Source: Ectocarpus siliculosus
Lineage: Eukaryota > Sar > Phaeophyceae > Ectocarpales > Ectocarpaceae
Length of the DNA: 64,000 bases
Assembly: GCA_000310025.1 (NCBI GenBank)
Contig: FN648545.1
Location: 92,553 to 156,552, forward strand
Direction of reading: 5' to 3'
Positions 8,109 to 62,127 of this stretch are shown here, piece after piece (position 1 is the first letter of the stretch; every line of letters begins with the position of its first letter). Both the position numbers and the translations under genes were made by a program. A model generated the notes under the pieces. That model was not told the origin of the DNA. It did not search any database and worked only from the letters and a program-made list of their open reading frames with translations.

Positions 8109-8149
8109 CGCTGAGGCAACACCCGGCCTAGCTAGGCTCCACGATATCG

Positions 8150-31900: not shown

Positions 31901-32348
31901 GAAAAACGCCTTTTAACTCTGAAATCGGAATCAAAACGCGCGTTTTCAACCACGCCTAAAGACTTTGCGCTCGCAAAAGCAGCTCATCGGTGAAAGCTCC
32001 AAACGTCCACAGGTGAGGCCTTGCGCTCGTGTCGGCATGCGTTGGAAGTGTTTAGACACAGCAGCTTTCTTCTGGCAGCCCCCACGGGTCCACGCCAGAA
32101 GAAAGCGTGCTCCCTTGCATTTGAATGGTGATTCATCTTCAACAAAAAAAGACAGGAGAGCAGCAGCAGCATGTCTCTCCTCTCCGCAGCCGCGCCGCAC
32201 GACAACACCACAATGTTACCGGCCACAGGTCAGACCCTGGGCCTGGTGCGCATGCTTCGTCAGTGTATATGCATAGCAAGGTGGCGTTTGACTGCCTGTA
32301 GGTGTCCCGGTCACTCATTTCATGGCATGGCGAGACATACATGTGTAG
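31901..32348 (+). repeat. Left TIR, outer piece
   Basis: It matches the reverse complement of 61680-62127 almost base for base. It contains a perfect 14-bp palindrome AAAACGCGCGTTTT (31933-31946) and a perfect 13-bp stem hairpin (32064-32106). The match stops after CATGTGTAG at 32348, where the retroelement insertion begins. Confidence 0.9.
32064..32106. other. Subterminal hairpin in the left TIR
   Basis: GCTTTCTTCTGGC (32064-32076) and GCCAGAAGAAAGC (32094-32106) are perfect complements around a 17-nt loop. The right arm keeps the structure with small changes. It could be a transposase binding or processing site; this is inference. Confidence 0.7.
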
Positions 32349-32838
32349 CCGCAGATTGTTTGCGTTGTGTTGGCTGGTACACGCCGTTCGATCGTTCATG
32401 TCGGACAATGCTGTAGAACCACACGCTGGCGTGGTTTCCTTGGTTACAGTCCCCCCTTGGTGGCTGTTACACACGGTTATGCATCTATTGCACAGACAGT
32501 TGCACTGACGAGGTTACTGCTGCATTTCCCCGCGCTGATGTGGTTATTCATCGTCTCACTGCTGTTGTCGCTGTGATGAATTGGTGTCGTCGCGGCGCGC
32601 CGCTGCCGGTGCCCTGCCACTACGTCTCATTGGCTGTACACGCCGTTGTACCCCTAAGCCATTATAATTACGTCATCCGATTGCCGTAATGGCGGCTAAT
32701 TTACATATCACCTCACCTCACCCGCATCGCATGCGACCGCGTTGGACGTATCCCTCCCAACTAGGGAATATCTGGGCGCCCGTCACGAGCTGTCTTGTAT
32801 CTCATGTAGCTTGTGCCTTATACATTGGCCACATATTG

Positions 32839-32966
32839 CCGTTTGGTGGTGCCTTTTTCCTTTGGGATTGCGTGTCCAACGTGCACACCACATAAATACA
32901 TGCCGTTCGGTGGTGCCTTTTTCCCTTGGGGTTGCGCGTCCAACGCGCACACCACACAACCACATA
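32839..32966. repeat. 64-bp tandem pair
   Basis: GCCGTT(T/C)GGTGGTGCCTT is followed by TTTCC(T/C)TTGGG(A/G)TTGCG and CACACCACA in both copies (about 32839-32902 and 32903-32966). It lies inside the retroelement insertion. Confidence 0.75.
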
Positions 32967-33789
32967 ATAGTAAGTAGTGACCGTCCGGGTTGTTTTATGT
33001 AAACACCACATGGTCACATGCCGAATTAGTTCCCTTGCCTCTCGCGTACTGACGTACCTCGTGGCGCACGCCCAACTAACACCAACAACCCATATGCACA
33101 CCAACTCCGCCGTAGCTAGCAATCCCGTCTGTGAGTAGGTAGACTTACACTTGGATAAGCCCGGCGAGACGTTGTGTTAGTTGGTCCGTGCGCTGTCATG
33201 TTTTCTCGACGGTACGCCTGGATACACAGCATCGAATCGACGTTTGCTTCGTAACGTAATTTCACACGCGGCCATACAAATTGGGCCCCGAAAAGGAAAT
33301 ATATATATATGCTGTGTCCCTTTTTATGTGGACGGGAACCCGTGCTGTCAGTTTTCAGCGCACAGGTTTCCTCTTCAAAAAAAAAAAAAAAAAGGGAGGG
33401 GGGGGGGGTGATCTCGACAGTTCCTGTCGTTCAAGAAGTGCGAGTTTTGGGCCAGTCACGGCCTTTCAATGCTTCGATATCATCTGCGATTCGGACACGA
33501 TGACGTTCCGGATTCTCTAGAAAAAAGCTGGACAAGCCACGTGCCATACTACGAACAGCTCTCGCCGATGGATGCTTGTCGAACGCCGCAACGCGTTGCG
33601 GGCAAGTGAATGACCATGACTGTGGTGATCCGACCGGCGTTACTTTGGACGCATGCGACGTTGCCGTCCTTCCCAGATGGTCAAAACCATCCAAAGTCGG
33701 GTCGATCTAGCATGTAACGCTAACAACGCATCTGCGGGAAAAGTTCCAAAAGCGGCTTTCTCTGACGGTTTCCTCGCACGAAAGGCCCT

Positions 33790-34905
33790 GACAGCGAGCA
33801 AGCCACCCTCATCGTCAAACTTGACGCATCATCGGACGCGTCTTCCCTAGGCTGGGGTGGCGTTTTGTCAACATCGGGGGAGCCCAGTACCGCGCTGGTG
33901 GTGTGATCCCAACTGATTGGCTGCACAAGCACATCAACAAGGAGATGTTTGCGTTGTACCAGTTGTCGCGACTCTTTCCGTGTGCGCTTTCCGACTGACT
34001 TGCAGCGGGCTCAAGGGTTCATCGACGTCGCGTTTGTTGGAGCTACAGATCGAGTACCCAGTGGCTGCAAATGCCGTCGCTGATGGTATCTCTCTGCCCT
34101 GGCGCGAAAGCATCGTTCGTCTAAACCCCGAGGGTTTTCCGTATTCTCTGGGAGAATGTGCGGCTGGTCGCCGTTGTTCTCATGGCTTCGGCGACCGAAC
34201 AACGTTGTTGCTGAACGCAGGCCTCGGACCAAGACGCGTTCGAATGCCTCAGATTCTTGGGCACATAACGTAGAGGCACCAAGTGGGTGTACGACAGAGC
34301 CATGCTTTGGCGCATAGACTAGGTATGATACAATTTCGCGCATGCCTTCTAGTTTCGCAATGCGCTAACAGTACACAGCCGCGTCGATGCAGAAAGGGAT
34401 CGTGTCCAAGTTGAAGATGGCGATCCAAAAGTAGTTGGGGCAAGACGGCAGCTGGGACCCTGTTACGCGGTCGGGCGACCCGTGTCGTAGTCCTCTCGTA
34501 GAACCCTACGTCATCTTTACGAGGAAGGAACAGAAGCTTTGTCAACCACCAGAGGCTATGTTGCCGCATGTTCTCTTCGATTTGTTGAGGGACATGCGCT
34601 TCCGGGCACAAACTGCATCGCCTTTGGTGGTACGCATTGAGCATACCAGGGATGTCGCTTTGTTCTCGCTGGCGTTCGCGGCCACGACGACTTCTCCTTC
34701 ACGATGGGATCGCAGATTCTGCGGCTGCCAGCGGGGGAGGATCTTATCTTCAATTTCCAGTTTGGTAAGACCCCCCATGACTCCGTAGACGCCGTGGTGG
34801 CGGGCGCGGACGTTACGGGCTGCCACACTGCTACACGATGCCTTCCTCTCGGGACGGGGGATGTGTGGCACAGTTGCTGGATGGACCTGCAATCGCTGTT
34901 ATCAT
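33790..34905 (+). pseudogene. DIRS/Ngaro-like RNase H and tyrosine recombinase remnant
   Basis: The first block has LDASSDASSLGWGGVL, the RNase H opening of tyrosine-recombinase retroelements. The similarity then changes frame to IPTDWLHKHINKEMFALYQL. Next comes VANAVADGISLPWRESIVRL (about 34065-34130). The recombinase region follows: HVLFDLLRDMRFRAQ (34570-34615), RDVALFSLAFA (34650-34682) and, in another frame, MGSQILRLPAGEDLIF and QFGKTPHDS (34704-34780). At least three frame changes make it a pseudogene. The order RNase H then recombinase fits DIRS/Ngaro elements rather than Cryptons. Confidence 0.65.
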
Positions 34906-35261
34906 GAAAAATTGCCGGGCGGCGTACCGATAGCGTCGCACTTGGCGCCTACTAGTGTAGGAACGGCGGGTTCCAAGACGAGGCGTAGCGAGTACTACCC
35001 TGACTAAAACACGTTGCCGATTGTCGGCCGGCCACGCATACATTCGATTTTCTACGTGTGCGTGCCGCGGAAATAAGAAAGTTTGGGTGGGGAGAGACCT
35101 ACCTTAGAGGCTTGTGTGGTCAAAAGCAATATACCAATATATGGCAGATCAGACAATCAACAGGAAAGTAATGGGCAGGACCACAGGCCGGTGCAGGAGG
35201 CCTCACCCAACCCAATCCAATACTTACATTGAATGATCTAGGTAAGGGACAAGAATACAAC

Positions 35262-35670
35262 AGTATTCACGGAAAACATTTGTTGCGAACAGGCAGCTAG
35301 GGTAAAGCAGCAAGCTGCTGGCCCCATCTATCCTCCTGGTCAGATCAGCTGACACCATGACGACCAGCGCATTAATGTGTTGCGTAGGGTATGGTCGCCC
35401 TCAGCGTGCGTGTGTGTGTGTAGGTTTCGTCTGCTGATCTGTGGCCGCTGAATGAAGAAGAGGGAAGAGGGCACCAGTCTACTGCTGCTGTAAAAAGAGT
35501 TTTTTCTCTGTTTTTTGCCGGCGCTCCTCACTCGAAAAAAAAAATCAGCAGCAAGCAGCAGCCAAAATCAGCAGCAATCAGCAGCCATAACTCTGTATCC
35601 ACAGCCCGCCTTGATATAGATACGGAATAACGCCTGCCAGGCAGCGTGGCAGGGTTTCGCCCGTCCGCGT
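35262..35670 (+). repeat. Left TIR, inner piece
   Basis: Similarity to the right arm resumes at TATTCACGG and continues through GCAGCAAGCTGCTGGCC, GATCAGCTGACACCATGACG and CAGGGTTTCGCCCGT. It then fades near 35670. Divergence is higher than in the outer piece, with small indels in CAG-rich parts. Confidence 0.85.
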
Positions 35671-38467: not shown

Positions 38468-38498
38468 ATTGCTTCGGGCTACGACATCCCGAAGCAAT
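38468..38498. terminator. Perfect 11-bp stem hairpin
   Basis: ATTGCTTCGGG (38468-38478) pairs with CCCGAAGCAAT (38488-38498) across a 9-nt loop, with AT-rich flanks. No gene ends just upstream, so the terminator label is only one option. It could be a structural or regulatory hairpin. Confidence 0.4.
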
Positions 38499-38660
38499 TA
38501 CAACTAGGTTAAAATTAGAGTTGTTCTGTGCAACAAGCCTAGCCTCTTAAGCGACCCCGCAAAGACCCCGCTGGGCCTTCCATAATCCCCTGTTGTGGTA
38601 TGTATGCACGCTCCCTGAAGTCTGGTTGACCCGTGAAGAAGGACTCACTTGTTATTATCA

Positions 38661-39999: not shown

Positions 40000-42900
40000 T
40001 TAGTCAACATGCGCATGGACGTCACTTCCCACATATTCTTCTCCTCCTCCTGCGTCCGACCCTTCCGGCGACCCCTGGCCTGACAAACTACTTGGGCCAG
40101 ACGTCTGGGGACAGATGACACTCACACCAGGGTCAACGCAAACGGCAACTCCCGGGTTGGATGCGGCGATTCGTCCGGTTACAACGAGCCTTACTGGCGC
40201 GTGGTATCCGGGGACGCCGTCATTGAAGGCGCCAATCAGCGTCTCGCGGTTGTCCGTCCGTTGAAGGTAGCTGGAGATCTCGTGGTGCGCGCTGCTCTTG
40301 TCCTTGCCTTGTTCGCAGCAGGCGTAATACGCTGGGCACGACTCCGCGACGCGCAGGTAGAGCGCGGCCTCCGAGTGCTTTACAATCTGGTTCTTGGGGC
40401 ACATTTTCTTGAGTAGTCCGTTGTCCGCCACGCGGACGAGGCGCACGAACTGAAGGTCTGTGCTGTGGTCTTCAATGTTGAGGGAGTCGAGCGCCTGCCC
40501 GTGGGAATCGTACACGACTGGATTTCCCGAAACGGGAATGTCGTTATGGGTTGTCTGGTACGATGTCTTGTTCCTAGCGCACAAGTAGGGCAAGTCGTCG
40601 TCGGAGTTAACCTGAATCCACCCGGGGCAGGGAACGTGATCACAGGGGGGGATATTGGGGACCGGAGCACAGGGGGTTTGTGAGGAGCCACGAATGGTCT
40701 CGAACCAACACTTAGTGCTTGAACAATCACAGCAGCAGTGTCTAAAGACACAGAACGGGGGGCGCCCTTGCCTTCACCGTGTAGTAAGGGTAGAAAATAT
40801 GGTGCTTCGCCGAATATCGTAGTAGTAGTACAAGTAGGTCTATTGGCTGCGAGGTCGGCCACGTCGACTGTATAAATAATAAGTTGAAAGACACCTGAAG
40901 GTGGCAGACACAGAGAGAATCTCAGGATCGTAGAAGGTACATATACATATACATACCTACCTGCTAATCACATAAAGAACAAACGCAGGTATCTCACCTT
41001 GATGACCCACCCCATTTGTTCTGCAATTGCTTGGGCAGCTCCCAGAAGAGCCCGCTCGTCAGGAGTAGCACCATCTACGCTGCCGCCTTCACGCAAGTTG
41101 TTGGTCCTGGTGTTGACGTCTGCGAGAATGCGATTAGGCGTGGTGGTCTCGGGGATGCCATCCGGTAGAGAGCCGTGTGAGATGTACGTGATCTCCGACG
41201 CGGAGCCGTCGTCCTGCATGTTGGAGGAAGGCGGTGCGACTGAGAGTTATACGGGAGGTGAACCGGAAGAACTATAATAATGGCTCTCGTCCAAATAACA
41301 AGTACAAACTTGTGGGCATCGTGCGTTCGTAAATTCAGGTAGTAGGGCGACAAGCATGCCTGACCGACGAGATTGACTTACAGTAAACAGTCCCTTCCTC
41401 CATGCGCCCTCCCATGCTTCCTCGACGCGGGTGGTGACGGCACCATGATGCTCCGACGCGACGAGAAAGGCCTCTACCTTCCTCCCCAAGTTTAGCGCAC
41501 ATTCGACTACGCCATCCGACTCCGCGTGCATGGACACCACTGTGTCTCCCGCCTTCGTCCAACTTCAATTCGATGGGGCATCGAAGAGAATGGCACGGAG
41601 AGGACGGGGGGGGAAGGGGGAGGTCGCAGATCACGATACATGGATGATTGGCGTAGCAATCAATTATATTCTCCTTGAAATCTTGATGCATTTGACAGCC
41701 ACAGAACCTCCACGTACATCATTAACGTCAGGGATCAGCTGAGCACCTCCACCTCCCCACCGCTACTGCCCCGTCTGGCGTACCAAACATGCACGCGCTT
41801 AACTACAACACGAAGAAACGTCGAGTCCCACCCAACCTCACCGCTGTATTGCGAACTGTACGACATTGTCATGGTATCCCCGGGTAACCCCCTTGCGAGG
41901 TACGTCACCCATGAGTGGCGAAGGGATACGCCTGCCGCTGGCGGTACTCCACGTACTTCCATCGCTCGATCCTGCCGAACGTCTGCCAGTAAAGCTCTGC
42001 GGCGTTACGGTGTCGTTGCAGGTGAAGTTCATTCCACCACCGTCACCGCAGCCGTTGTGGTGAGCCACGATGTAGTGGTCGAGTGCGCCGCCGATGAACT
42101 TCTTCTTGCTTTCAGCGGTCAGCCCGCCTCCCCGGGAGCCGTATTCGACAACCAACCCGTGGTCCTCGACGACCATCCCTAGTCCGGGCTGCTGTAGGTG
42201 TTCTGATTTACCCCGGTGCACAGCAAGAAAGCGCGACCAGTTCAGGAAGTATGGGTAGAACAACAACACCTTCATCAAGAATCCGATTGAGACCATGCCC
42301 GTGCGGCCAACAACAACCCAGAATTCCTCCCGAAACCTACTACTCGTGACGTCAGACATCTTCCAACCAATCAAACACTCAATATTACTCACCCACGATG
42401 CAGCGTTGGTGCTTGTAGATGGGGACAGGCAAGGACACCAGAACTGTTCCCTCCGGGTGCAACAGTTCTTTGCAGACGTGATACAGGAGCCCTTTCATGT
42501 GCACCTGGGCTGACGGGTTTTCCTGGAGCAGATGGTCGTGGAGACCAAGGGGGACAAAGACCAGCTTCGCTAGACCGTTCTCTAGCTTCAGCACCCCGAC
42601 GTCTAGGTCACCGAAGCCAGAACTCAGTGGAGTCGACTCGTGGATGCAGGTGCTCGCAATCCTGTCGAAATGCACGAATAAGGGGGAACACGAACAACGC
42701 AGCACCAGCAAATCGACGCGAATAGGACAGGAACGGGAACGTAAGTAGAAAAAAAATTAAGCACACGCTGTAAGAGGCGACAGTTGGAAGATCTGGCATA
42801 CGTCGAGAACACTGAAATGTACCAGCGCGCGGAAGTCACCTGCGCGCGACCTTAACGTCATACTCTGCGCCTGGCGAAGAAGGTAGCGGGTTGACGGCGT

Positions 42901-43588
42901 TCTTCTTCGGAGAGCCACCCGCCTTGCCCTTTTTTTTCGCTCTCCCCTGCCCGGTGCGAGATTCCGCGCCGTCATCGTCGTCGTCGTCGTCTTGGGATTG
43001 CCGACGCTTGGAAGCCGCCTGCTTGCCGCCCGCAGCCGCCGTTGCCCGGCAGTCCTTGCAAGGGCGCGTCTTCTGCATCTCGTTTTCCGTCGGAAGAATG
43101 GTCAATGAACAGTCCCCGCAATATACAATCTTGCACTTCGGGCAGTAATACCTGTTGGGAGCCATCGACGACGGAGTACACACAGAACACACAGAGGGCG
43201 CGCCAAAACGAGGATTAATTGTAGGTCAGAACAGATCGGCCGAATTTCGCCTTGTGCTGAGGGCGCGCATGTATGTGGGGATGGTGTGGTTTACGGAATA
43301 TGAGGGTGGTTTACTTAGAAGCGCCTCCTTGGTTTATCTGCATGGTGAATGAGGTTGATTGGGTCCGCATAATCACAAGTCCGAAAAAAAACGCCGCCGG
43401 TCAGGAGCGCCCTATTGCGCATTTGTCATGAAGGCCACCTACCCTGATGTTGCCGGTGGTTTGCAATGACCACACAAGACGAGGGTGTCCTTTCCCACAC
43501 TGTCGTCCCTCTTCCGTCGGCGCTGTTTGCCGCGTTGCTCCTCGTCGTCGTCGTCGTCGCCCTCCCGTCGGCGTTCCTTGCCGGGTTG

Positions 43589-43648
<60 letters not shown>

Positions 43649-46600
43649 CCCGCCGCCTTTGTTTCCCTCCGAGCCCTTGTCACGAGGAGGAACCATCTGT
43701 AGATGGCGGAGGTTGACGTCGTTCAGCACAGCACCGTGTTTCTTGTCGTACTCCACAAGAAACTCCCTCAGGTCGGGGTCTTTGCTCAGAACCTGACACA
43801 AACAACAAGCGAAACATGCATGAAGGAGGTTATTGTCATCGACAATCAGACGAAACGAGAGTTGTGCACAAGATATGTGTCGGCACGGAAATCATACGGG
43901 GCGATCATCCGAATTGCACACCATGGACATGAAGTTCAAATCTCCCTTGTACGTTAGTGATGACGTATATAGGATTGTTTGGGAGGCTGACCAAGGCACG
44001 GGTTTACACAACCACCATTGGCATGCGAGACACAATACACAGTTCGGTCAGGGTCAGAGGGCGATCGGTATGTTTCCGTCAAATGGAGAAAGGACCCTCC
44101 CTTTCTTTGTTGCCTCGATGATTTAGCAAGGCTTCACGCGGACTACTGGACATAACAATACGTGAGAGGAACGAGTGTGATGGTGTACAACCTAGTAGTA
44201 ACAGATAGACTTGCGTCCCGTTAGGTCGTTCGTGATCGAGAGGACGGGTGCTTGGGGTTTTGCAGGCACTGGTGTCCTTGCACACCTAACACACATACGG
44301 CTCATGGGGCCCACAACCTACATACATGGCAGGAAAATGTGTTCTGCCTGTTGTACGCACAGAAGAGCAGCCAATATTTCGTGTCAAGGAACTAGAGCGT
44401 AGTACTCTAGGTCTTCTGTTGGAGGCGGTCGAGGTTATAATATAACTCCTACCCATGCTTACGCCGGACGTTGACTCACTGTTCGAAGCTGCTTCCCTGG
44501 ATTGGCCAGGAGCACCTCTCTCTCGGTAGCGGACAGGGCGGGAGCGTGCGCAGGAAGTTTTGATTCCAGCGCCTTGATATCCCTCTCAAGTTGCGCCAAG
44601 TGGGGCTTGAGGTAGTTGGCGTAGTGTCCGGGCTTTGCAAAAGCTAGATTGTTAACCAGCCTGCAAAAGACCAACAAGTGTAATACGCGAGCACGTCAAC
44701 CAACACCGTGGATCTGTACATATACCGTATATGACACAAGATAACACACCCCCTGGACCGATTTTCAAAGCTCGATTACTCCACGACGAAGAGGATGCAT
44801 AAATGAAACAATACGTTTTCGAACAGCTCTCGACGAGACGGTTCCAACGCCGCCGTTTTCGGCGCTGTGACTCTTCCTGCTGTTGAGAAATCGAGCTTTG
44901 AAAATCGGCCAAGGGGGTGTGTTATCTTGTGTCATATACGGTACACATATATATATATTATGGTGAGTACATCAGCGGTATATATATGCACGAAAAAAAG
45001 GTGCTTTAATGGAAGATTTATGAAATTGCCAAAAGTGCAGCCCGACACTATTACCCATTCTATTGTGAGGGAAACCACTGCAAAAAAAAACGAATTGTCG
45101 GCCGTCGAGTTTGGCAGTAATGTCATCAAACTATGACCGGAACCCCACCCACAACAAATTAAAACAGTCCTCCCGTTATGATACAACTCCATCCTTGTGT
45201 AACCCATGCCTCATGAACTAAAACCTATATATACGAAGGAATCACACTCACTCCTTGAGCGGTACCGTCCACAGATGCCCAGGCACGATGGTCTCGACGG
45301 CCGCGATCCAAGACGTCGACGCACTTGCTTGAGCTAAGGCGGCGGCCTTGTCTATCTTGCCGTCGTTACCTTTCGGGCACCTACCGCATACAAACGACAA
45401 AAAAAAACGAAAAAAAAGTTAGAAGCCGGAATACAATGGTCGTTGGTCTCCCCTGTACTGACAGATACACACAACGTACGGTGTCTAGCAATTTGTCTGG
45501 CCGGACAAGAAGTGTTGCTATTGTTGTGACGAAGTGATGTACACATGACTAGCTAGTGTCGTGCAGGTCACGGCAAGACGAGCGTGTCGAGGCAGGTTCA
45601 TCGGGGCAGTTAACGTTGCGGGGATTGAATCGGGTGGATGTCATGGACAGCGATGACGGTGATATGCGCCGGGGTCAAATGTTTGTCATCGACAGCTGCA
45701 GTGTAAATCGTACCGGGCGAAGACCTCAATGTACATTGCTTGTTCGACGGGCTTCTCGGAGAGGCCGGTGAACTCCTTGGTCTTGAGGAAGGTCTGCGTG
45801 ATGCGTTCATGACCCGCCAGCTTTTGCTCGGTTATGGCCTTCAAAGACGCCATAGCTTGAGTGCTGAAATTGGCGGAGATCAAGAGGTGGTTGCGTAGCG
45901 TCTGGGTGCTCGGCGTAACGCCTGGTACCTGCAGCGACGAACGAACATTTCATTGCAGTTGCAGTCCGTCCGGCAAGCATTGTTAAGTATTTTTATTGCA
46001 CTCCACGATCGACGCAGGATCCGCATACAATTGACAAGAAAACATTACCGCGCAGGAAGGGTCTCGCCACGATGGTTACCCGACCTGAACTCATTCATTG
46101 AACGTTTACACTACTTTGGGGATCGTCGCTGCCTGTTTGTAAATCATGTAGTTGTAGTATTTATGATGCCGGCCGCGTTTGTCAGGGTCAGGTAGCCCCA
46201 CCTTGGCCCAGCACGCCTTCAGTTCCTTTGCAGTGACTGTTTTCTTCATCTTGTGTCTGGGTCGTGACCTGTTCTGCTCGTCGAGAACATCCTGTATCAT
46301 GGTGCCGAAGAAGAATACCTGGTCATACGTCGTGCGCTTGGCGTGCGTTTCGGAGCATTGGTTGCAGGCTGCCGCGCATCCGGCAAAAAGACAAAAAAAA
46401 AACGCAAGAAAAGGGGCGAATTTGCGCAGGGCGCGTTAACGGCACCACCAGTAAACACGCCAGGTTCGATCACATGACACAAATAAGTGGTGGCCATGAA
46501 GGGTCGCGTTAGTAGGCCCAAATGCAGGTTGAAAGCGAACGGGACGGGGTACCGTGAGGTTAGATGCAAAGTGTTGTTTCTTTGCCATTGTATGTCGTGA

Positions 46601-47830: not shown

Positions 47831-47861
<31 letters not shown>

Positions 47862-48726: not shown

Positions 48727-48759
<33 letters not shown>

Positions 48760-48831: not shown

Positions 48832-51800
48832 ATGGTGCTCGCAGCGGGGGCGGCTTCGTTGTTCGGTGCAGCTACCCCTGTAAAGGACGCTGCAGAGGCG
48901 AAGAAGCAGCTGCTACGTACCAAAAGAGCTGGTCGGAAGGGAAAGCGACCGCTTTTTGTCGCCCCGGGGAACGACGCGGCGGGTGCCGGCGAAGAAGGGG
49001 GGGATGGGCACACCCAAACTCTCAAAGCTTCCAAGAGGAAGTGGCCAGAACCCTGGTCCCCGGAAAAGCTGAACGGGTGGCTCCATAACGAAGCGTCGAA
49101 GAAGAATGGGGGCGTTGAGGGGGCAGGCGGCAAGGGGAAACACAAGATCGCCCGTTGCTGCGGCCTAGATTGCGCTTTGCGGTTTTGCAAGCCAGATTAC
49201 GAAGCCGGGGACGATGGTTACTACTACGGAGGAGGAGGTGATGATGATGATGACGACGATGGAATGACTACTGCTGCTGCTGTTGCTACTGGTGCTGCTG
49301 GTCAGCACAATTGGGAGTACCTGCGAGCGGAGCAGGACCGCTTCGCGAAGCTAACTCGAGAACCGGACCGGAAAGCCTTCGTGGTCGCCCAGGTCCCCCC
49401 TCAAAAGCTGGCAAAGGGTAGCATGATCGCGGCGAACACTGTCGTCTGCAACACTGCATTTACGAGATTTTTCGGCGTTTTCGAGACCCTCGTCAGTTCG
49501 TGCAAGAAGACCCCGAAGGCCCAGGCATCGAGCAGCGTACACAGGTACGACTTCTTCATCGTGCTGTTGAATGGTGATCATGAAGTACGTAATTAATGTA
49601 TGTATGTATGTATGTATGTATGTATGTATGTTGGTGTATGTTCATACCTCAATACATACATACATGTACTACAATTAATTTCGCTAGGCCGACCGACGGT
49701 GTACGTACGTACGTACATACATACGTATGTATCGTCGACTATATACATACATACATAATAATGGAGGGATATATACTGCTGTAGAGGGCAATACGCCTCA
49801 CAGCTCTCTCTCTTTTTTTAACTTGGTTGGTTGTACTTAAAGGCCAAACTACTACTACTACTACTACTGTATACTGCTGCCTTAACGATGTAACATTCAT
49901 CTAATGTATGATTTCATATCTGTGTGTACAGTACCCCCTACTTAACAACCTACAACGAGCACGTACTTTATGTTTCACGCTGGATAGTTTGATTCACCAA
50001 CTAACTGTTGCCTGTCCCTCTGCTCTGTCTGGGCCTTGCTGCGCTGTCTGTCGTTGTTTTGGTGCTTTCTCTTTACTAACTGGATGTAAGGGCTTCAATC
50101 GCGTCGACGCGAGACCGTCCAAAGTTGGAGAGAGTGGTTGCCTTCCTGCACCGTCACGAAGACATGTATGGGCAGAAGACGCCGAATTCCGATCAGAGCT
50201 ACCTCTACCTGAAGAGCAAACTCGTGAGCAACCCCAGGCAGGCGTGTTTGATGTATTACCTAAACTGCACCACGTACGTACGTACGTTAGATGCCCTGTA
50301 CGGCCTGTATGGATGAATCTCTGTGCGTGGTTGAACAAACGAACCATCATCATCAATGATCATCACCACCGTACGACCAATTAGTAGAGACCAAAGACAC
50401 CCACTGCTAACAACGCGATAAAAACTCTAAACAAATTATATATCATGAAGTGTTGGACGGTGGTAACGTTCCGACTAATACAGTGGAGTTTACAGTGGAG
50501 TACTTTTTTACGACTAGACTTTATTTACTACATACAAACAGTTGACACCCGTAGTGAGAACTACACACATACCAATACATACATACATGCATAATTTACA
50601 GCCTATATTTCGTGTAGTTCGTTGGAATAATACAGCAATTAGATACACACACACGACTGACTCTGTCGCACTCACCACCACTCTACCGCCGACTCAACAA
50701 GGAGCTGTACGAAGAATACTCCATGACCACGCGGGAATTGTATGGCCAAGACCCAGCGAGTCTTGCCGAGCGTTTATGCTCGAAGAACTACTTCAACCAG
50801 GTGTGGAACGCCCACTTCGGGAACCTGAAGTTGAAACCGAACGGGGATTTCATGTTGTGCGAGATCTGCACTCTTCTAAAGGAAAAGATTCATGGGCAGG
50901 CCGGTTCGAGAGGCGTTCAAGACGACGCAGAGCGGGAGAGGCATGAGTCGGTATACAGAGAGCACCTCAAGGTAGGAATTCACCCCGAAACAAACGGGTT
51001 GTTATTGTGTGTGTATAATAGTTTGCACTGCTCGCTGCTGTGCTGCTGCGGGAAGCTGCTGCTGCTGCTGCAGCTGTGGTTTCATGTATGTATGTATGTA
51101 TGTATGTATGTATGTAGTAATAGGTCGGCACACAACAAATTAATTGATTGTTAATGCATCCATCCTTAGACATTTGCATCCAATCGCCCACGATAGATAG
51201 GGTCTACATATATATTATGATGAGGTCGCCGTCCGTCGTCGTCGCCGATCGCCCACGGTTGATACTACATAATACATACAACAAGTGGTCAACCCTCGTC
51301 CTCGCCGTCATTGTCCGTTGCGTATCTTGTCCAGGATGTGGAGAGAGATCGCATGTATGGTGCAAGACTTGAGAACCAAGCTGCCGTGGCCAAGAGCAAC
51401 GGCACACCGTGGGAAACGGTGTACCTCCAGGTGGACGCTGCCAACCAGAGCAACTTCGCTACTCCGATCGGCGCTTCGCAGGCTCATGGAGTCGACGACA
51501 GGTAGGTGCGGGTGGATATGATACGAACCTACCGGCCGACAGTAACCAGGGTCCGGCCAACTAATAGTCCTACATGTATGATACAGCTAAAAAAATATAA
51601 TCAATATGGATCTAATCCCGCATATTGCCCCGATTCGTTGCAGGGGTTACGCTGAACGCCAGAAGATCTATGGTGCGCTGGTGTCAGGCATAATGATGCA
51701 GGTTTTCATGATCCCGCAGATCCTCGGCACAGGTATTTTTACTTGACGTCTCTCTGTCAAGTAGTGACACTCTTTCTATCTCAACACAGGAACAACATCT

Positions 51801-54055
51801 GCGAACCACGTACGTACGTACCTGCGCACGTTACCGCCAGTGTTCCATTTCACGTATAATATGTTCGTTCACTGCTTGTTGCTTCAGAAGTTCGGCATTA
51901 ATTTTTGTGCATGTTCAAAGGTTGGCGTGTGTGTTGCGTTGTTAACAACGTCCTCACATCATTAATTTGATTTCTTGGTTTCACCACTTGATGCACATCA
52001 GGCAGCAACACGGTGTGTACGACGCTGTTCACATTGTTCATGGAACTCACCCTCCAGTGGAAGCATTCGTTGGGGGATGTCTTCATTCAGATGGACAACA
52101 CGGTGTCCGAGAACAAGAACAACTTCATCATGGGGTTTCTAGCGGCATTGGTTGGGAGAGGGGTGGTGAGATCCGTGACTCTGTGCTTCATGATGGTCGG
52201 GCATACCCACATCCAGATCGACCAGGTCTTCTCGTGGTAAGGGCGGCGTTCCTCTGCTGAAACTAACACCAACCCGTGTGACGTCGCGCGATGGGCCCAA
52301 GGCGTGGTTTGCACGTTACCCACCACGTAGTGACTACCTTAGACTACGTCGAACTCTCACTCCCGCTGTCGTCCTGTGTTCTTTTACAATACTACCACAT
52401 GATAATATAATCCGTGATAATGTGTGGATGCATGCATTCCCAAGAAAGTATTAGACAGTGGACGACTCGCTCCGTGCTCCTTGTTTCAGCATGCTAAATG
52501 TACATTGTCTCTCTGTCTGTCCGTCTGTGTTGCCGTGCGATCGAACAGTTTCGCCCGTAGCGTGAAAGGCTGCGCGGTGTTCACACGAGAGCACCTAGCA
52601 GAATTCTTCGAATCAGCCTACAAGACGCTCCCGGTTCAGTGCCGTACTCTCGAGAATCTCGCTAATTTTAAGGATCTAGTTCAGCCCGTCACGAGGCGAA
52701 TACCCAACATCACGAAGTTCCAGGCCTTTAACATCTCCAAGGAAGGAACAGCGATCGTCGCGAAGGTGAAGACAAAGTTACACCACGATGACTGGCTAGG
52801 CTTCAGCGCTGACGGCAAGACGGTGGGGACAGGTGCCGGTTTCAGGGGCTGGCGCCTAATGCGCGAGCGAGATGTGCGATTGGAGGAGACGCCGTCGTAT
52901 CTACTCAAGACTGTGGACGAGGAGATTATTCGTAAGATCCAGACACGCCAAGAGGCATCCTGGAAAAGGCTACCCGCGTTCGTTAGTCTCGGTGAGCGTA
53001 GTATACTCATCATACATAAAATGTAGGTGCCGTTGTCCCAGGTGGAATGATAGGAGAAGATAAGTGTGTATACCTGTATATAGACTAACAACATGCTTCC
53101 TATGGACGTGATGATGGCCGTTCGGTTACCTCGACACGACGCGTTGGTGGTTTGACAGACCCGGAACTTGTGAAGGCACAACACTTGGACAGTCTGCGGG
53201 TGCTGAGAATGCACGGCCGCAGAAAAATTCGACCTAGAAACCAATTAGCTGCCGGATTCTTTCCCCGCCGATGAAGACGACGACTCAGAAGAGAGAGAGG
53301 AGGATGATGGCGACATCCCCGGAGGGGAGGACTTCGGCAGTGGCGTTGTTGGTGGTGGCGACGTCAACTCCGATGACGACGACGATGGCGACGACCCTTT
53401 CGATAGCTCTGACGACGATGCTGAAATGTTGACGTCGTCGTATGTGGATAACCGCGAGCGATCCCTGAACCACGAGAGTGGTGTCAGAAGACGTCAACAA
53501 CGGAAAGAGGGGGAGGAGGTATCGCATGGAGCGGTCGGTTCTTTCAGCTTTTTCTTGGGTTCAGCCGCCCCTCTGTTGGTGGGGAAAGTGCAGGACACGC
53601 GCCAAGAATCGGGAAAAGAGGAAGAGGTTCTGCTTCACTGGTATACCCCTAGGAAAACGTTGGTCGCCAACGCGTCGAGCACCGCCTTTGACACCTATGC
53701 TGGAGCGATTTTCAACGCGGCTTATTGCCGGGTGGAAGTGGTGGGCCAGAGAAAGAAGTCCTACGTGGAGGACATGTCGTGGGAGCCCAAGAGCGGTATA
53801 GTCGCAACGTGCCCTAACCTCATATCGGGCGGGAAGAAGATACCGTCTACAGTTAAGAAGGCACTCAAAAGCGCCGCGCGCAGCCAAGGCCAGCCAACAG
53901 CCGAGCAGAAAGATGGGGAGGAGGGTGGAGACGACGATGTCGCTCATGGTAGTCACCCTACAGTCGAGAGCAGCAGCAGCAGTTGTAGTGGTATTAGTGC
54001 TAGGGGGGCTAACGTTCGCAGGTCTCCGAGCGGCGGGGGGGGGGGGGCGTGGTGA
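48832..54055 (+). CDS. Gene C: DUF7869-like protein, candidate DDE/D transposase, 8 exons, 956 aa
   Basis: Exons: 48832-49544, 50091-50277, 50702-50971, 51335-51501, 51644-51732, 52002-52236, 52549-52991 and 53289-54055. GT-AG junctions and phases agree, and the sum is 2871 nt with no internal stop. Residues 109-119 carry four Cys (CCGLDCALRFC), and 353-356 are CEIC after a WNAHFGNL segment, the usual zinc-binding lead-in. The core has LQVDAANQSNF (Asp424), IQMDNTVSENKN (Asp507) and VGHTHIQIDQVFS (Asp549, His543/545), as in the family I know as DUF7869. Their spacing would fit an RNase H-fold catalytic triad. An acidic linker (about 703-760) and a C-terminal domain with HWYTPRKT and GKKIPSTVKKAL follow. 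Catalytic activity and transposase function are inferred. ATG 48832 is the first in-frame ATG after the CTG run. Confidence 0.75.
49597..49760. repeat. TATG/CATA microsatellites in gene C intron 1
   Basis: Runs of TATG (49597-49630), CATA and GTAC occur just after exon 1 of gene C. Similar TATG runs recur in intron 3 (about 51087-51115). They produce Tyr/Val/Cys-rich false frames. Confidence 0.8.
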
Positions 54056-54958
54056 CGGTCGTTTGTCGACGCAGTCGGGGGAGGGAACAAACTCGGAGGT
54101 GGAGGTAGAACGGGGGCTTCAAAACATCCATACGGGGGGCGCGGGCGTAGACGCTGCCCCCCCCCGTTTAGACGAAGTTCTGCCAAAACGAACAAGCACT
54201 CGGGGCCTAATGCCAAGAAGATCTTGGGCTGAGGAAGGGTAGAGCGTATCCTTTAGACAGTGTCATTGTTGTCCTGTTGGCGTCGAGTTGATTGAGAGTC
54301 CTGCCTGTCGCCCACGTCGTTTTTGTCATGGAAGTACGGTCTCGTTGGTGGCGTAGTTTTGCCGTGGTTGTCAATAATACGTGACATGGTTTCAATTCTT
54401 GCCGATGGGGGTGCTGCCGGCCCGATACTGTGTTTGCTGCCCGCCTTTGAGTCTCATCTTTTTTCACGTCCAACACAACAGATTTAAGCAACTGGGGCCT
54501 CCATTGTGACGGAAGAAGGCATCCGAAATGAGGTTCTTGTGCAGTTGTTGATCATGGATGGGCATGCACAAACTTCCATTCGATGGAAGATACCTTGACG
54601 GGATCGAGCCAGATCACAGCTGCTGTGCACCCGACAAAAGTAAGCTTACTTTAGCGAGCGTCAAAACGTTTCCGTCCTTCGTCGTGTAATAAATTCAGCT
54701 GCAGTAGGCAGAATGTTCCATCGCCGCCCATGCGCACAAAAAGGAGTCGGTAGGGCACATAAAACTGGCCTAAAACGTTCCAACATGTCCGTCCTTGTTG
54801 TTCATCACCACGTTTAGAGATTGAAGTTAGGTTCGTTACCACACCAAGCGCATCCCGCAGAATCGAAAGCCAAGTAATGCCGAACTTTGTATTCTACGAA
54901 TTGTCACCGAATAAATAGGTTCTACCGCCAAAGCACGTTCACTATACTGTTACCCTGC
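54056..54958. other. Convergent intergenic region between gene C and block B
   Basis: About 0.9 kb lie between the stop of gene C and the stop of the SET-like frame. It holds only short frames and should contain both 3' ends. No hairpin or repeat was noticed. Confidence 0.5.
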
Positions 54959-55590
54959 TTAGACGCTACCCAAACTACCCTTAGACTCCGCCACATGGTA
55001 GTCGTACAAACGTTCTTCTCCAGCCTTGACATCTCTAGAAAGTCTGAACACCAGTACTTTAGATGGCACGAGCAGCTCCTCAAAGGCCGGGTTTTGCACG
55101 TGTCGAATCTCTGTACCGCCCCGGCCCTGCCTCCCGAGGCTGAGAAGTTCAGCATCAATTTGTTCGTGTGCCTCCACGTTAGCATCTCCGCCGTCCGAGC
55201 CGCTTGAGTTCATGTACCACAAGAAGCAAGACCGGTGAGGCACCATGTACAGCGCGGCCTGTGGACGACTGTTCTCATACTCTGTGCACAGCAGCCACAC
55301 TTTAGAAGTCACGTGGTGGCGAGGGACACCGTCCTTGTTCATGGCAGACACGACCTCTTCTACAGAATCATGCACTACGAAAGACCCGAAACAAGCCATA
55401 GGCATGGCGTCTCCTGCAGCCATGTCCTCCTGAGCAAACAAACCGAGTCCGTGACGATTGGATGCCTGCCGGGTGCACGCAAACAAGGCAACGGAGGGGT
55501 CGGCAGTTGTAGAGACATCAAGATAACCAATTGTGGATGCGTTTTTTTCAACGTCGTTCGGCGACCCACTCGAAAAATCCAACTTTGCAC
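54959..55590 (-). CDS. SET-like domain, C-terminal part of block B
   Basis: About 208 codons are open. Residues 44-53 read HGLGLFAQED, the start of a SET domain (G-x-G-x-x-A). Mid-way is CFLWYMNSSG, where SET domains have the N/F-M-N-H segment. Near the end, VFRLSRDVKAGEERLYDY matches the closing A-x-R-D-I-x-x-GEEL-x-x-DY motif. The Asn-His pair is not conserved, so methyltransferase activity is uncertain. There is no ATG near the start. The frame either joins the upstream methyltransferase-like block by an intron or is separated from it by a frameshift near 55600. SET domains methylate lysines, often on histones. Confidence 0.6.
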
Positions 55591-58500
55591 CTTTATTTCG
55601 AGTCCCTGGTCCTTCGCGGCCATGGCGGCGACCTGCTGCTCCGGGGAGATCACATGCGGTGCGTGTTGAGGTTGCCTCCAGGCCACTTCAACCGCCACCT
55701 CCCGTGGCACGTTGCTGTGAGGGATGTTCACGGGATGTGTGTCCCTCGAAGCCCAGACCCGAGGCGCCACCGACCGTGGCACGTTGCTGTGAGGGATGTT
55801 GGGGCGTGTCTCCCGAACCCAGGGTCGAGGCTCTCCCGACCTAAACTCCTCCTCCCATTTCCTCACTTTCTGCCTCACCGAGTCCACCGTACCGAAGTTA
55901 GGGACTAATGCCACCAGCGTACGTCCGTGCTTGAGCGCCTGTTCGCAAACTGTGGTGTCTACGGCTGCATCAGTTGTGAGCACCGCATCGTCTCGGTCGG
56001 TATATCTGGCGATGGGTTCGGCATGGTGACACATCGAAGCGGTAAATAAAGGTGTGCATGTTCGGTGTGTCATGTCAGAGCGGGGAAAATGCGACTCAGA
56101 TGCGGGTGCGTACCAAGCAAGAGACGACCGTCGCACACGAAACAAAATACAGAGCCATATACATTTAGGTTACATTAGGATGACGTTTCGAGCGGGAGCT
56201 CTATTTAATGGTATGCGCAAGACACCCTAACTCTCCGTACAAAGGAGGATTTACAGCAGCTCAGGTTACGGAAAAGGCACATCATTTGCACCCCCTTTTT
56301 ACGAAACTACAAGAATAAAACAGAACCATCACTATCTTACCGTTTAATGAAGAACGTGGTCAGGGGGCTGCTGATGAAAGACCCCTCGGCGGGTCTTCGC
56401 GTTGACCACTTCCCTACTTGCGGGTCTAACGCGGCGTCTACAGGCGGCTGGACACAGGTTGGCCTGGATGCCCGAGGTGTGTGTGTCGTCTCGCCCCCCT
56501 CATCGCTCTCCCGACCCCCCGGGTTGCAAATGAACCTCTCCCCATCCTTGTGCGCGACGAAGGTGATGGAGCTCTTGCCTGCGTGGTCAGAAGACCCAGC
56601 GTACGTTGATATGAGTGGCACCCGCTCTACCCGAAGACCCGCTTTCTCGAACATGTCTTGCGGGAAACATCGTGTGCGTGAGAGGGAAGAAAAAGGACGA
56701 GGGTGTTAACGTCAGTCGCACGGTATTCTTCATAGTTTTAGGAAGCCGACAACACAACAGCGTGGCATGGAAGGACAACACAGAATCCCCTAGCTATACG
56801 GAATTTTTCGACAATAGAATCACGTTGCAGGACATGGATCCACGCGGTACCTGTCAGAAGTAAGGTTTCCTGCACCTCGCCAGGTACAGACAGCAACACG
56901 GTGCCGTGGTTTTCCAAGTTCTTCGCGAGAGAGAGTCGAGGGCGGTCTGTAGACGTTGGTTCAGGGGAGACGACGAACAGCTGATGGAAGTCCCGGCCGG
57001 AATGCTGACAAACTGGGAGAGGTTGAGGAACGCCAGCGTGTACCTGATGCCCGCCGGATGCAATCCATCCAGATCCCCAACTGAATGTGGGCAGAATACG
57101 TCGATCGCAACGAGCCTCGACAAAAGCCGCCTGTGGATGTTGGTCAAGGAATATGGCGTCGTGTGCGTAGACCATGGTTGCTATCATCGTTGTGTTCGGG
57201 AAGGAACGGGGCCATCACGTCGGCCAGCCTGTCGCTGTTATCGCCCTTAACCCAAAATAGCTGCCAACACTTCGCACACGGCACATCGCACAACACTTCG
57301 CACACGGCACATCGCACGTACGAGGGCATACACTTTTTGGCTCACCTCCTGACAGCCATGTTGTCGGTCGCCACCTCGTTGGCTGCCGTTGCCGGCGCAC
57401 AAGCAGCGGAAGCAGCGGAAGCAGCGGCAGCTTCTGATGCCTTGGTCGTGGCTGCAAGTTGACCCTTGCCAGTCTTCAGCTTGGATTGTCCGACCTCCGA
57501 CGCGGAATCATCTTTAGCCGCGCGTTGACGCTTGTGAAGCTTCTGGTTGAACTGTTCGACCTCCGACGCGGCTTTCTCTTTTCACTCCTTCTCCTTTCTG
57601 ATGTGGATCTCGTGGAACGGTTTCATTGACTCGCACTTTTTCATCTCCTGATCTAATCCAAAAAAATAATTGTTGCCGCGGGGTGAAAGGCGTCGTTCTT
57701 GAGGTTACCAACATGAAGCCCGCGAAACAAGCGTGGAGTTTCCGGCGGATCGACCAGTTCGGTTAATCGTGCACGACAGCCTTCGGTGCGGGTTTCGTAA
57801 TTTTTGGCTGATCGAGGGCAAAAATGTATTCTCTTGTGAAGCAGTCTACCGGATGCCGGTAACCTACCTGTAATATCGGTTGCCACGGTCGACTAAGCTG
57901 GAACTCGTTGAGAGGCGTGTGCGGTAGCATCCCATCCGGGAAGCTCCTCGCGTGGATCGCACACGCTTCGTCAAGTGCGTGGTGGTGTAAGATGAACTGT
58001 GAGTACGGCTCGTACGCCATCACCCTGCGGACGAAACTGTGACGACGCGGAAAGGGACAATCGGCAGATATCAGTGGTTTGTTGAAGAACATTAACAAGC
58101 CTCTATCGACAAGTGCGTTTCTTCGTCCCAACTCCGTTGCGGCATCTGCATGAAGAACCTCACTCACTCATGGAATCCTGGAGTCCAGTTCCGTTGTGCG
58201 ACGAGTGCGGAAACGCTACGAACGGCGCGACCAGTGGCGCTCGCCGCCACGTCGAGTTCCCTGAAGTCATCCTCGGTTAGCTTTCCAATCTTGAACCCAC
58301 TACAAAAACAAGTGGGTGTTTCGACAAAAACAAAATTGTTGGGTGTCCCGCATAAAATGGATGGGTAGCGCGAAGGCGGACGTTTGGTGCGGTACGCTGC
58401 AAAAAAACTTCGAAATTGTCTGCAGAACTGCACGCAACGCAAGTAAACTTCAACGTAGGAATTTATCAAAGCAACACGACTAAGGAGATAAATATTACGC

Positions 58501-60734
58501 GGTGGACTAAAATAAGCACGCGGGTTTTCAACCTCTTAAAGTAATCAACAACAATGTTATTGTAACGAACAATGTGTTTAACGTCTTACGAAACACGCTT
58601 CCAGCGCCTGCAAAACTAAACACGCAACAGCTTACGAGGTCATGCGGTAAATGTACGCTGCTTGATCTTCCCCCGGCATTGCCGCGAACTCGGGCCGAAG
58701 CAAGGCTTCCAGTGTGACGCGTTCAGTATGCAGGCCGTACGGTGAGGGTTTGAGGTCGCGATGTCCGGCTGGGCGTCCCCGAAGCACCGTGACGTCCTCT
58801 AGAGCGTCGAGTCCTTCCTTCTTGAGGGCTTCAGTCGCATTGGCAATCGACTTCTTGGCCTGCACATACGCGGAAGTGAGTGTGGTTCCGAAGATGGGAT
58901 TATTGCATTCTCTGACAACAGCAACATGCATGCATGGAATGGCGCAACTATTTCAACATTGAGTTGCTTCCTGTATGACCCGCCAAATTTTGTACAGTGA
59001 TCTTGCAACATTATCCAAGTTTTCAAGTACTGTTAAGTTGGTGGAGGGTTTTCAGTGTGCAGGTAGGTGCGTGAGTCGACCTAACAAGAGGGATGACTGC
59101 GGCAGGTTACGACGACATGTGATGATATCCAACTCTCGTCTCACGTTTTCGCGCGAACCACCGCAACCAGAGGCCAAGCCCTCCACCGCGACAGGCTTGG
59201 ACGTGGTGTAACTGCACCCCTGCAGAGCGGCCTTGGTTGACACTATCCGATCGAACAACGTGGTCTTGACAACTGCTTCGGTGACATCCTGCGCACCTGG
59301 GTGTGGAGTACGATAGCCGTACGTTTGTTTATCTTTATGCTGTAAAATGCATCCCCTACATACAGCAGTGCAAGGCTGTCTTGTGCGTTCTGGGTAGAAT
59401 AAAAATAAACGCCATCGCTGGACTCCTCGGCACAACTAAAGAACCTGGACTACCGGACATGCCAAATCCTAAGGGTGGGGCTAACTCTAGGGTTGTACGT
59501 TGATGTCATTTGGTCCATTGAGTTTCAGTCTCCTCGTGTTATTTTTTGACGCACACACACAGCAGACTTTTGTACTCTCGCGCTCCTTTGTGATAAATCT
59601 TGTTTGCAAGACAAAGGCCGCCTCTTTCTGTGCCTGGCATCGGCGGCCCTAATCTAAATACATACATAGTGAGGTGCAAACCAAACCCAGCATGTCGAAA
59701 AAAAAACAACGGTTTCTGCAGTTAGTTCACGCTGCCGGCGTACCAGCCGCCATGGAAAAATGTAAGGCTGAAACAACCAACCCATCCGCACTACTTCTCC
59801 GTATCCACGTCCACTGCACGATGAACATCAACGAGCGGGCAGATGTCTTCTCCTGACTCCTCGTTGAGTGCAAGAAGAGCTGCACATCTGTTGCAGTACA
59901 AAAAAAAAACACGGCCAGTGGGGGCGTTTGCTTGTCCTGGCAGGAACGCGTGGAACACGTTGTCCTGTGTTGTTCCATCATGACATGGGGACCATTCCTA
60001 GCCACGAGCGAGCGCGAACACCGCTTTCTTCCCGGCCCTCTCTCGTTACTGCTGTAACGAGTCGACTCAACTGTGACTCGCCGATATACTTGCTACAAAT
60101 TGATACCCGAATAAAATAAATACCTTCGAAGAATACACCTTCGAAATCATGCGAGTGTACTCCCGCTTCGAGGTCGACGACCGATCGATAGGGACGGCGC
60201 AATCCTTGTCGCGAAGAAAAAAACGACAGCGACTGCCGCAGGCACGTGGGGTATACCAACAACATAACTTCGTTTTTTTTTGCTGTGGCTACCATACCTT
60301 CCTTTTGTGGGACCCCGAACTTTGAGCCAAGCACAAACCCGTGGTAAACGCACTGGTTGGTAGGCTGGCGCCAAGTACAACATGGGGCGAATACACTCAA
60401 AAACCCCTAACCCATATTCCACCTAATGTATGCACCATACATAGTACCTGTGGCGTCCATCTATGATTTCCAGGGGCCTTGTCTTCGCCGTCGCCTCGTC
60501 CAACACCCCACTGTCACAAGCACGTCGGCAGGCGATGATACGTGTGTCAACCCAGCCGTTGGACATGATGCTCTGCCTTAATCGTGCCACGCCGTCAGGA
60601 CGCAATGGTCTCCCGCTTAACGACAGGTCCAGGTTACACACCGGAACCTTCCAACGGCCTTCAAACGATTCGTCAAGTAGCGACTCCATGCCTGCGAGGA
60701 GGGGGGCGCTAAGCAGCACACAGGCAACGAACAT
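54959..60734 (-). pseudogene. Block B: decayed paralogue of gene A with a SET-like end
   Basis: Exon-like blocks occur in the same order as gene A. A ParB-like start (ATG 60734, donor near 60448) carries WKVPVCNLDLSL and IIDGRHR. A YCNRC pair lies near 59915. Helical exons with good splice sites are at 58911-58636, 58299-58165 and 58143-57868, and a Lys/Ala linker at 57652-57346. A GDLDG...GTVLLSVPGE region (57150-56880) matches GDLDV...GTVLVSLP of gene A. KAGLRVERVPL (about 56645) and ALKHGRTLVALV (about 55965) follow. Lesions: TGA at 57584-57582, a 2-nt slip in a CT run near 56937, a block join near 58165 that does not fit, and a frame change near 55600. Several introns could not be joined, so part of this may be mis-splicing on my side. 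Confidence 0.55.
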
Positions 60735-61264
60735 TGCAGGAGCCGGGGGCACAATAAGCGGTACGGACTTGTAACTGGTCGTAAAGCGTCAACGGGAGTG
60801 CCCGCAATATTTATACGCCCTCAATAGAGCTATTGCAAGAGCAGAGGGATGAGGTGGTCCAAGCACAATAGTAGTCGGGAACAAAGGCGGTAGAGATGCG
60901 CACGGCTATCTCCTCGTAGTTGTGGTGAACACTGAATCATGATGGTAGTAAGATGCCACAAACACTTGCACTAGACTACAGACTCTCGCACTAAAAAAAA
61001 ATCGTATTCGCCGCGCCCATCTATTATTATTGCTGAATCTGGCATTACACCAACCAAAACTACTACTGCTGTGTTCCCTCCCTGCATCACCTGTTTGATG
61101 GATGCAGAAGCACTACTACTGCTGCTTGCTGCTGCTGGTTGGTGCTGGTTGGTGCTTGCTGGTGCTGCTGGAAATATTTGAGAGTTTCTACCAGCCTGAG
61201 GCAGCGCGGACAAAAATTTAAAACAGCCCTTTACTGCTGCTGCCCTCTTATTTCCCCCTCGGCG
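60735..61264. other. Right subterminal non-coding region of the giant element
   Basis: It holds no supported gene. CTG/TGG-rich runs lie near 61100-61170. Promoter sequences of block B should lie here. Confidence 0.4.
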
Positions 61265-62127
61265 CCCAAGACGTACGGGCGAAACCCTGTATCTTTAGAA
61301 AGGTGGGCTGTGGATACAGTGATGACTCCTGTTTGCTGCCGCTCCTGCTGTTGCTTGCTGCTGCTGCTGCTGCTGAATGTTTTTCGAGGTGTGAGCAGCT
61401 GGGTGAGGAGCGCCCGGCGGCAAAAAAAAGAGAAACAACTTTTACAGCAGTAGTACACGGCTGTCCTCTTCCCTCTTCTTCATTCAGCGGCCACAGATCG
61501 CAGACGAAACCTACACACACACACATACGCTGAGGGCGACCATACCCTACGCAACACGTTAATGCGCTGGTCGTCATGGTGTCAGCTGATCTGACCACGA
61601 GGATAGATAGGGCCAGCAGCTTGCTGCTTCACCCTCGCTGCCTGTTCGCAACAATTTTTTCCCGTGAATACAACGACAACTACACATGTATGTCTCGCCA
61701 TGCCATGAAATGAGCCCCCGGGACACCTACAGGCAGTCAAACGCCACCTTGCTATGCATATACACTGACGAAGCATGCGCACCAGGCCCAGGGTCTGACC
61801 TGTGGCCGGTAACATTGTGGTGTTGTCGTGCGGCGCGGCTGCGGAGAGGAGAGACATGCTGCTGCTGCTCTCTTGTCTTTTTTTGTTGAAGATGAATCAT
61901 CATTCAAATGCAAGGGAGCACGCTTTCTTCTGGCGTGGACCCGTGGGGGCTCCCAGAAGAACGCTGCTGTGTCTAAACACTTCCAACGCATGCCTACACG
62001 AGCGCAGGGCCTCACCTGTGGACGTTTGGAGCTTTCACCGATGAGCTGCTTTTGCGAGCGCAAAGTCTTTCGGCGTGGTTGAAAACGCGCGTTTTGATTC
62101 CGATTTCAGAGTTAAAAGGCGTTTTTC
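61265..62127 (-). repeat. Right TIR, uninterrupted
   Basis: This is the reverse-complement partner of both left pieces. Continuity across the left insertion point shows the ancestral arm: TACATGTGTAG is followed directly by a TTGTCGTT spacer and then TATTCACGG. Its outer palindrome is at 62082-62095, and the hairpin-forming pair is at about 61922-61964 with two stem mismatches. Confidence 0.9.

Follow-up and report, generated by a model that had tools for sequence, protein, structure and literature searches.

A giant transposon of probable Sola-1 type with a SET-bearing gene cassette in Ectocarpus siliculosus

What kind of mobile element lies between two long inverted repeats that enclose 30 kb in the genome of the brown alga Ectocarpus siliculosus, and does its unusual set of three large spliced genes place it outside the described transposon superfamilies? 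We addressed this question in a stretch of 64,000 nucleotides (the window), corresponding to bases 92553-156552 of contig FN648545.1, here called C106, and in the assembly to which it belongs (189.5 Mb in 492 contigs). The locus is likely a giant cut-and-paste DNA transposon of Sola-1 type. What we observe are its terminal inverted repeats (TIRs), the order of its genes, a conserved pair formed by genes A and B, the 4-bp target duplications of its relatives, the linkage of gene C to TIRs, and the damage that the copy in the window has suffered. The features of the element, placed partly by comparison with relatives on contigs C94 and C125, are the following.

31834-32348, forward strand: outer part of the left TIR, with the terminus AACAGAG at 31834, placed by homology with the C94 and C125 TIRs
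32349-35262, no strand assigned: nested, unrelated multi-copy element that splits the left TIR; its right edge is placed to within a few bases
35263-35670, forward strand: inner part of the left TIR, after the nested element, placed by its match to the right arm
40000-47529, reverse strand: gene A, a 12-exon model of 1138 residues, from the gene model and matches to Ectocarpus proteins
41382-41562 and 42393-42661, reverse strand: methyltransferase-like exons of gene A, named by eye
42840-43151, reverse strand: Cys-rich exon of gene A
47046-47529, reverse strand: ParB/DGQHR-like exon of gene A, from motif, context and weak profile matches
48832-54055, forward strand: gene B, a DUF7869 (PF25273) protein and probable DDD transposase, with a frame change and stop at about 53220-53250
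54702-60924, no strand assigned: cassette around gene C, also present in the C125 element; the two align over 6,428 columns with 84.7% DNA identity
54959-60734, reverse strand: gene C, convergent to gene B; inner exon borders uncertain
54959-55600, reverse strand: SET-like last exon of gene C (PF00856)
within 55591-56005, reverse strand: methyltransferase-like exon of gene C, named by eye
60441-60734, reverse strand: ParB-like first exon of gene C
61265-62127, reverse strand: right TIR, its outermost 67 bp absent, from self-comparison and the TIRs of relatives

Termini, relatives and transposase

The first-pass annotation of this DNA had proposed inverted arms of about 860 bp with nearly identical outer parts, and aligning 31901-35670 with the reverse complement of 61265-62127 bore this out. 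Self-comparison gives 97.8% identity between 31901-32348 and the reverse complement of 61680-62127 (438 of 448 bases by direct count, hence 10 mismatches, plus many at inner positions) and 90.8% between 35263-35531 and the reverse complement of 61403-61671, the match being gapped beyond 35531. Without the nested 2.9-kb repeat the left arm measures about 860 bp; the six copies of this repeat that we compared, among its best genome matches, all start at base 32349 and are 94.9-97.7% identical in the main alignment. Identity between the arms is not taken as a clock here.

The borders first given to the element, 31901 and 62127, are indeed the limits of the arm-to-arm match, but not those of the element, whose true left terminus is 31834. 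The C94 TIR aligns to window positions 31813-32100 with a local score of 123 (maximum of 55 in 200 shuffles), and its outermost part alone scores 47 against the left arm (33 or less in 1000 shuffles). Its terminus, AACCGGG, falls on AACAGAG at 31834, where two of the alignments of C94 TIRs to the left arm begin exactly, a third beginning 21 bases farther out. The C125 TIR begins with AACAGAG, identical to the left terminus in the window, and scores 95 against the left arm (64 or less for 200 shuffled queries); as a control, six unrelated loci score 58 at most, and two control loci holding C94-type TIRs score 112 and 98. The right arm, which ends at 62127, is shorter by the outermost 67 bp; a search for them in the 1.87 kb of contig that follow gave nothing (best score 22; shuffle mean 24), and they may have been lost or displaced past the contig end. 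A candidate target duplication at the earlier borders (GACC/CAGA) was rejected. Outside the window, the right TIR finds one lone outer-TIR piece, 75% identical, at C9:4109741-4110175, together with 44 short matches of at most 53 bases in its CAG-repeat part; in the 60 kb around the lone piece, tblastn detected none of genes A, B and C. The outer end of that piece runs directly into TTAGGGTTA, a telomere-like sequence.

That the arms are those of a transposon is supported by related TIRs elsewhere, which bracket homologous genes and come with 4-bp target duplications (C94 and C106:46847-89119). The C94 element (C94:48036-69449) is 21,414 bp long, with 282-bp TIRs that are 89% identical and CAGA on both sides. 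C106:46847-89119, which lies left of the window, is of the C94 type, with 42.3 kb between its TIRs and CAAG on both sides; contig C106 holds two giant related elements. A third relative, C95:91474-124678, is known from its ends: it spans 33.2 kb, has AAGT on both sides, and its TIRs are 86% like those of C125. Target duplications are thus perfect in all three relatives of which both ends were read. Our survey of 11 TIR loci leaves out C143, which the search pattern did not match. As for the genes, DUF7869 is present at 12 or more places in the genome and a 50-residue ParB-like piece of gene A at 10, the window being included in both counts. Both genes are found on five contig regions (C94, C206, C296, C460 and C106:53841-79411), and each of them repeats the arrangement of the window, with the gene A piece upstream of DUF7869 on the other strand.

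Gene B is the candidate transposase. All three large spliced genes announced between the arms can be modelled, and the DUF7869 content of the second is confirmed by its match to PF25273 (E 4.3e-37). The relatives found for it are P0008 of Ectocarpus sp. 12 (84% over 485 residues), P0001, labelled Undpi1, which we take to be Undaria pinnatifida (72% over residues 356-697), P0007 (62% over 204 residues) and P0002 of Ectocarpus CCAP 1310/34 (36%). In P0001 the conserved acidic residues are D249, D333 and D375; the last two are invariant in all four rows of the alignment, and D249 in the three rows covering that position. In a low-confidence model of P0001, D249 follows strand 1, D333 ends a later strand and D375 sits in the following helix, which is the order expected of an RNase H-like transposase and supports one weakly. 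Chains of Argonaute (RNase H-like) and BAH domains appear among the weak Foldseek ranks of this model and are not relied on; the BAH matches cover about 40 columns, by guess in the C-terminal part, with probabilities of 0.75-0.87 and E above 0.5, and if borne out would give the transposase a chromatin-reading tail. Searching PDB sequences with DUF7869 returned nothing useful. Between the window and the C94 relative the transposase exons are 46-72% identical, and such exons are under purifying selection, with dN/dS of 0.09-0.56 in seven of the eight comparisons with computable dS, itself near saturation. A DDD-type transposase is a Sola trait, and a 4-bp target duplication is the Sola rule. This rule was not found stated in the available text of four papers (PMC4455052, PMC11071193, PMC6431247 and PMC5199201). 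Taken together, the DUF7869 protein is the probable Sola-1-type transposase of these algae.

In the window element, this gene is probably broken. The sequence at about 53160-53260 can be recognised as one that forms an open frame in P0001, P0002 and P0007, but here its frame changes and it contains a stop codon, for which unusual splicing or an assembly error would be the other explanations. The first-pass annotation had taken the TIRs and two intact multi-exon genes to suggest recent activity; with part of the right TIR absent and the reading frame of the transposase interrupted, recent activity is unsupported for this copy. Some of the relatives are 94-99% identical to one another, and for relatives such activity is plausible.

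A 2025 study of Ectocarpus transposons (PMC12477816) describes, in its available text, giant KDZ, EnSpm and Sola-1 elements, in which nested insertions and pseudogenised transposases are common. Its Sola1-1_Ec32, from Ectocarpus sp. 7, is 21.5 kb long and carries a gene of 1104 residues, ParB-like and DNA-methyltransferase, on the strand opposite to the transposase; a single Sola-1 family is tabulated for Ectocarpus, and the text available names one such gene. As far as that description goes, the C94 element agrees with Sola1-1_Ec32 in length, gene pair and orientation, and the window element is like it in having a ParB-like and methyltransferase-like gene opposite the transposase strand. The window element shares with that of C94 homologous TIRs, the divergent A-B pair and a DUF7869 transposase. 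It differs from it in that the C94 element is 21.4 kb long with a clean CAGA duplication, has TIRs of 282 bp against about 860 bp, and matches gene C only through the ParB-like part of the gene A that it carries (50001-74000 covered, less 777 bases). We therefore regard the window element as a diverged family and, because its C94 relative fits Sola1-1_Ec32, as probably not a new superfamily. The initial claim that no described superfamily has this gene set fails for the ParB-methyltransferase part, published in a Sola-1 element, and holds for the third gene only: the window element has a SET-like domain, and the term 'SET domain' is absent from the main text of PMC12477816 as available.

Accessory genes and the SET-bearing cassette

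The reading frame of gene A is open across the whole 12-exon model. By BLASTP, its residues 490-1138 have 98.5% identity with a protein of Ectocarpus sp. 6 (99% over the aligned part); the figures are 86% (89-90%) for proteins from Ectocarpus sp. 8 and E. fasciculatus and 64% (68%) for one from Ectocarpus sp. 4. Four Ectocarpus proteins, P0003-P0006, align within these residues at 64-98%, and in this well-conserved, methyltransferase-like half they show 66-88% identity to the first of the four. Seven stretches of gene A, lying between its residues 56 and 1103, find a match in the C94 relative, where the altered motif I region can also be made out. The domain names given to these genes are weakly supported. 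The ParB-like label is favoured by motif, context and weak matches (DGQHR, E 0.015), with no PF02195 match in the genome; the methyltransferase-like parts were recognised by eye, with no Pfam match. PDB sequence searches with the ParB-like exons and the methyltransferase half of gene A gave nothing useful, and the AlphaFold model of P0003 (mean pLDDT 29.5) is too poor for fold claims. N6A/N4C DNA methyltransferases are marked by a [DNS]PP[YFW] motif and a glycine-rich S-adenosylmethionine motif. The former occurs in none of six proteins (A, C and P0003-P0006); a narrow pattern for the latter hits none of them apart from gene A, where it matches once, by chance, at residue 17. Since these textbook catalytic motifs were not found, gene A may bind and mark the DNA of the element without methylating it. 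Genes A and C resemble each other weakly (26% over 84 ParB-like columns, E 0.001).

Gene C is the third gene. For its SET-like character, proposed from the start, there is a match over the whole PF00856 profile (E 4.7e-4), at 21.0 bits just below the 22.4-bit cut-off. Against the PDB, 11 of the 16 weak matches of the SET-like exon are KMT5A/SETD8, all with E of at least 0.25, and the top match is unrelated. NHS is the catalytic motif of SET-domain lysine methyltransferases, and it is not in the SET-like part of gene C, where the stretch reads MNSS. The exon is found elsewhere at C125, C367 and C169, and the ParB-like first exon at the same three places and at C360. In C125 and C367 the last exon stops four residues before the stop in the window; in C169 its frame changes inside the exon, which is then cut by the contig end.

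At C125, the DUF7869 gene and gene C are convergent, in the same arrangement as in the window. Identity between the two cassettes spans exons and introns alike, at 0.83-0.93 of aligned bases per 400-bp step, and the coding dS of gene C is 0.11-0.12, whereas the transposase exons reach 1.5-2.5 (saturated in one exon of four), their proteins are 41-63% identical and the TIRs have also diverged. Because the cassette is 85% identical while transposases and TIRs are far more diverged, our data suggest that it was recently exchanged between two old transposon families. Constraint on gene C appears weak or mixed, since its dN/dS is 0.5-0.9, compared with 0.11-0.35 in the three transposase exons computable against C125, which are near saturation. 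The same disparity could also arise if gene C were an independent nested mobile element, or a host gene that landed twice near DUF7869 genes, and of six C125-type TIRs at least 95% identical, two (C24 and C57) are without a gene C match. We consider this unlikely: the cassette is not enclosed by any convincing inverted repeat (a single pair of 15 bp has E 8.7), the gap between the DUF7869 core exon and the SET exon is alike in the window and C125 elements (2.7 and 3.0 kb) with the same orientation, and gene C begins, at all four other loci, with a first exon that points inward and is placed 2.2-2.65 kb within a TIR of C125 type.

What is new at this locus is the cassette with the SET-like part, which appears to be exchangeable; a 2025 study had already described this kind of transposon in part. 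We would advance, tentatively, the possibility that brown-algal Sola-1 families swap a chromatin cassette, encoding a DNA-binding protein with ParB-, methyltransferase- and SET-like parts, independently of the transposase, and that it serves self-marking or evasion of host silencing through histones. To our knowledge, brown algae have little or no 5-methylcytosine, in which case a histone-directed passenger would be more useful than a cytosine methyltransferase.

Alternative readings and significance

Several observations weigh against a Sola-1 transposon. No target duplication can be read in the window element, because its right terminus is missing. For six of the 11 other DUF7869 places the contig gave no match to the gene A exon, and for four of the nine other gene A places (C50, C246, C378 and C413) there was none to DUF7869. 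Two of those six, on the short contigs C362 and C365, share 3,140 bases with 100% identity; they may represent a single locus that was assembled into both contigs, which leaves copy numbers uncertain. The AlphaFold model of P0001 is poor (mean pLDDT 34.6), and Foldseek found no match to it at E 0.001. Profile searches give little support to the names ParB and methyltransferase. Finally, the Sola-1 name comes from the gene pair, the length and the 4-bp duplications.

The best-surviving alternative for the element as a whole is a superfamily still undescribed that would have converged with Sola-1 in its 4-bp duplications and ParB-methyltransferase genes. In its favour, no paper was found in a literature search under the term DUF7869, and Pfam lists this domain as of unknown function. 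The agreement of the C94 element with Sola1-1_Ec32 in length, gene pair and orientation, and the single Ectocarpus Sola-1 family and gene in the available table and text of PMC12477816, make such convergence rather improbable. A false inverted join in the assembly is far less credible: a satellite array does close the contig 1.9 kb beyond the right end, which lacks 67 bp, but of 448 outer bases 10 differ between the arms, as do many positions farther in, and the gene order is the same in independent relatives.

Two other kinds of large element were considered through six-frame Pfam scans of 31901-61699, run on read-throughs of 5,000 residues. These are less sensitive, and because they missed the SET exon found by a separate scan, little can be read from their failing to report weak domains. 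Giant transposons of the KDZ and EnSpm groups, known from algae and fungi, resemble the window element in size, accessory genes and TIRs. They are marked by transposase Pfam families of their own, none of which matched, PF25273 alone passing the cut-off at this reduced sensitivity. An endogenous virus or self-synthesising, Polinton-like element with TIRs framing viral genes, to which the long TIRs, the 30 kb and the endogenous giant-virus elements reported in Ectocarpus in the literature available might point, is the least probable of all, given that the same scans, within their sensitivity, returned DUF7869 only (no capsid, ATPase, DNA polymerase or integrase, including the protein-primed DNA polymerase B and retroviral-type integrase of Polinton/Maverick elements) and that the relatives have transposon-like 4-bp duplications.

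Two further features of the window lie outside the element. One is the satellite array, with about nine copies rich in CATGGG/CATGAG motifs; the other is a 426-bp direct repeat, 95% identical, at 3371-3796 and 8146-8571, its copies 4.8 kb apart, as expected of long terminal repeats.

62990-64000, forward strand: satellite array with a 106-bp unit that reaches the end of the contig

For the Sola-1 transposon that we favour, catalysis, DNA binding and a chromatin role are, like the name itself, what we infer for the following scheme. The DUF7869 transposase would bind the long TIRs starting with AAC(C/A)G(G/A)G, excise the element and place it at a new site, duplicating 4 bp of the target. The gene A protein, of a published accessory class, would probably bind the DNA of the element and mark or shield it. 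Gene C would add a SET-like domain to a similar N-terminus, in a cassette exchanged between transposon families.

This reading gives a probable function, that of a transposase, to a domain that Pfam lists as unknown. It also makes Ectocarpus siliculosus a genome suited to dissecting a Sola-1 group, with several families, 4-bp duplications and elements of 21-42 kb. Our data further suggest that a passenger gene with a histone-methyltransferase-like domain has moved between transposon families, and the idea that giant transposons may carry their own chromatin modifiers thereby becomes testable.

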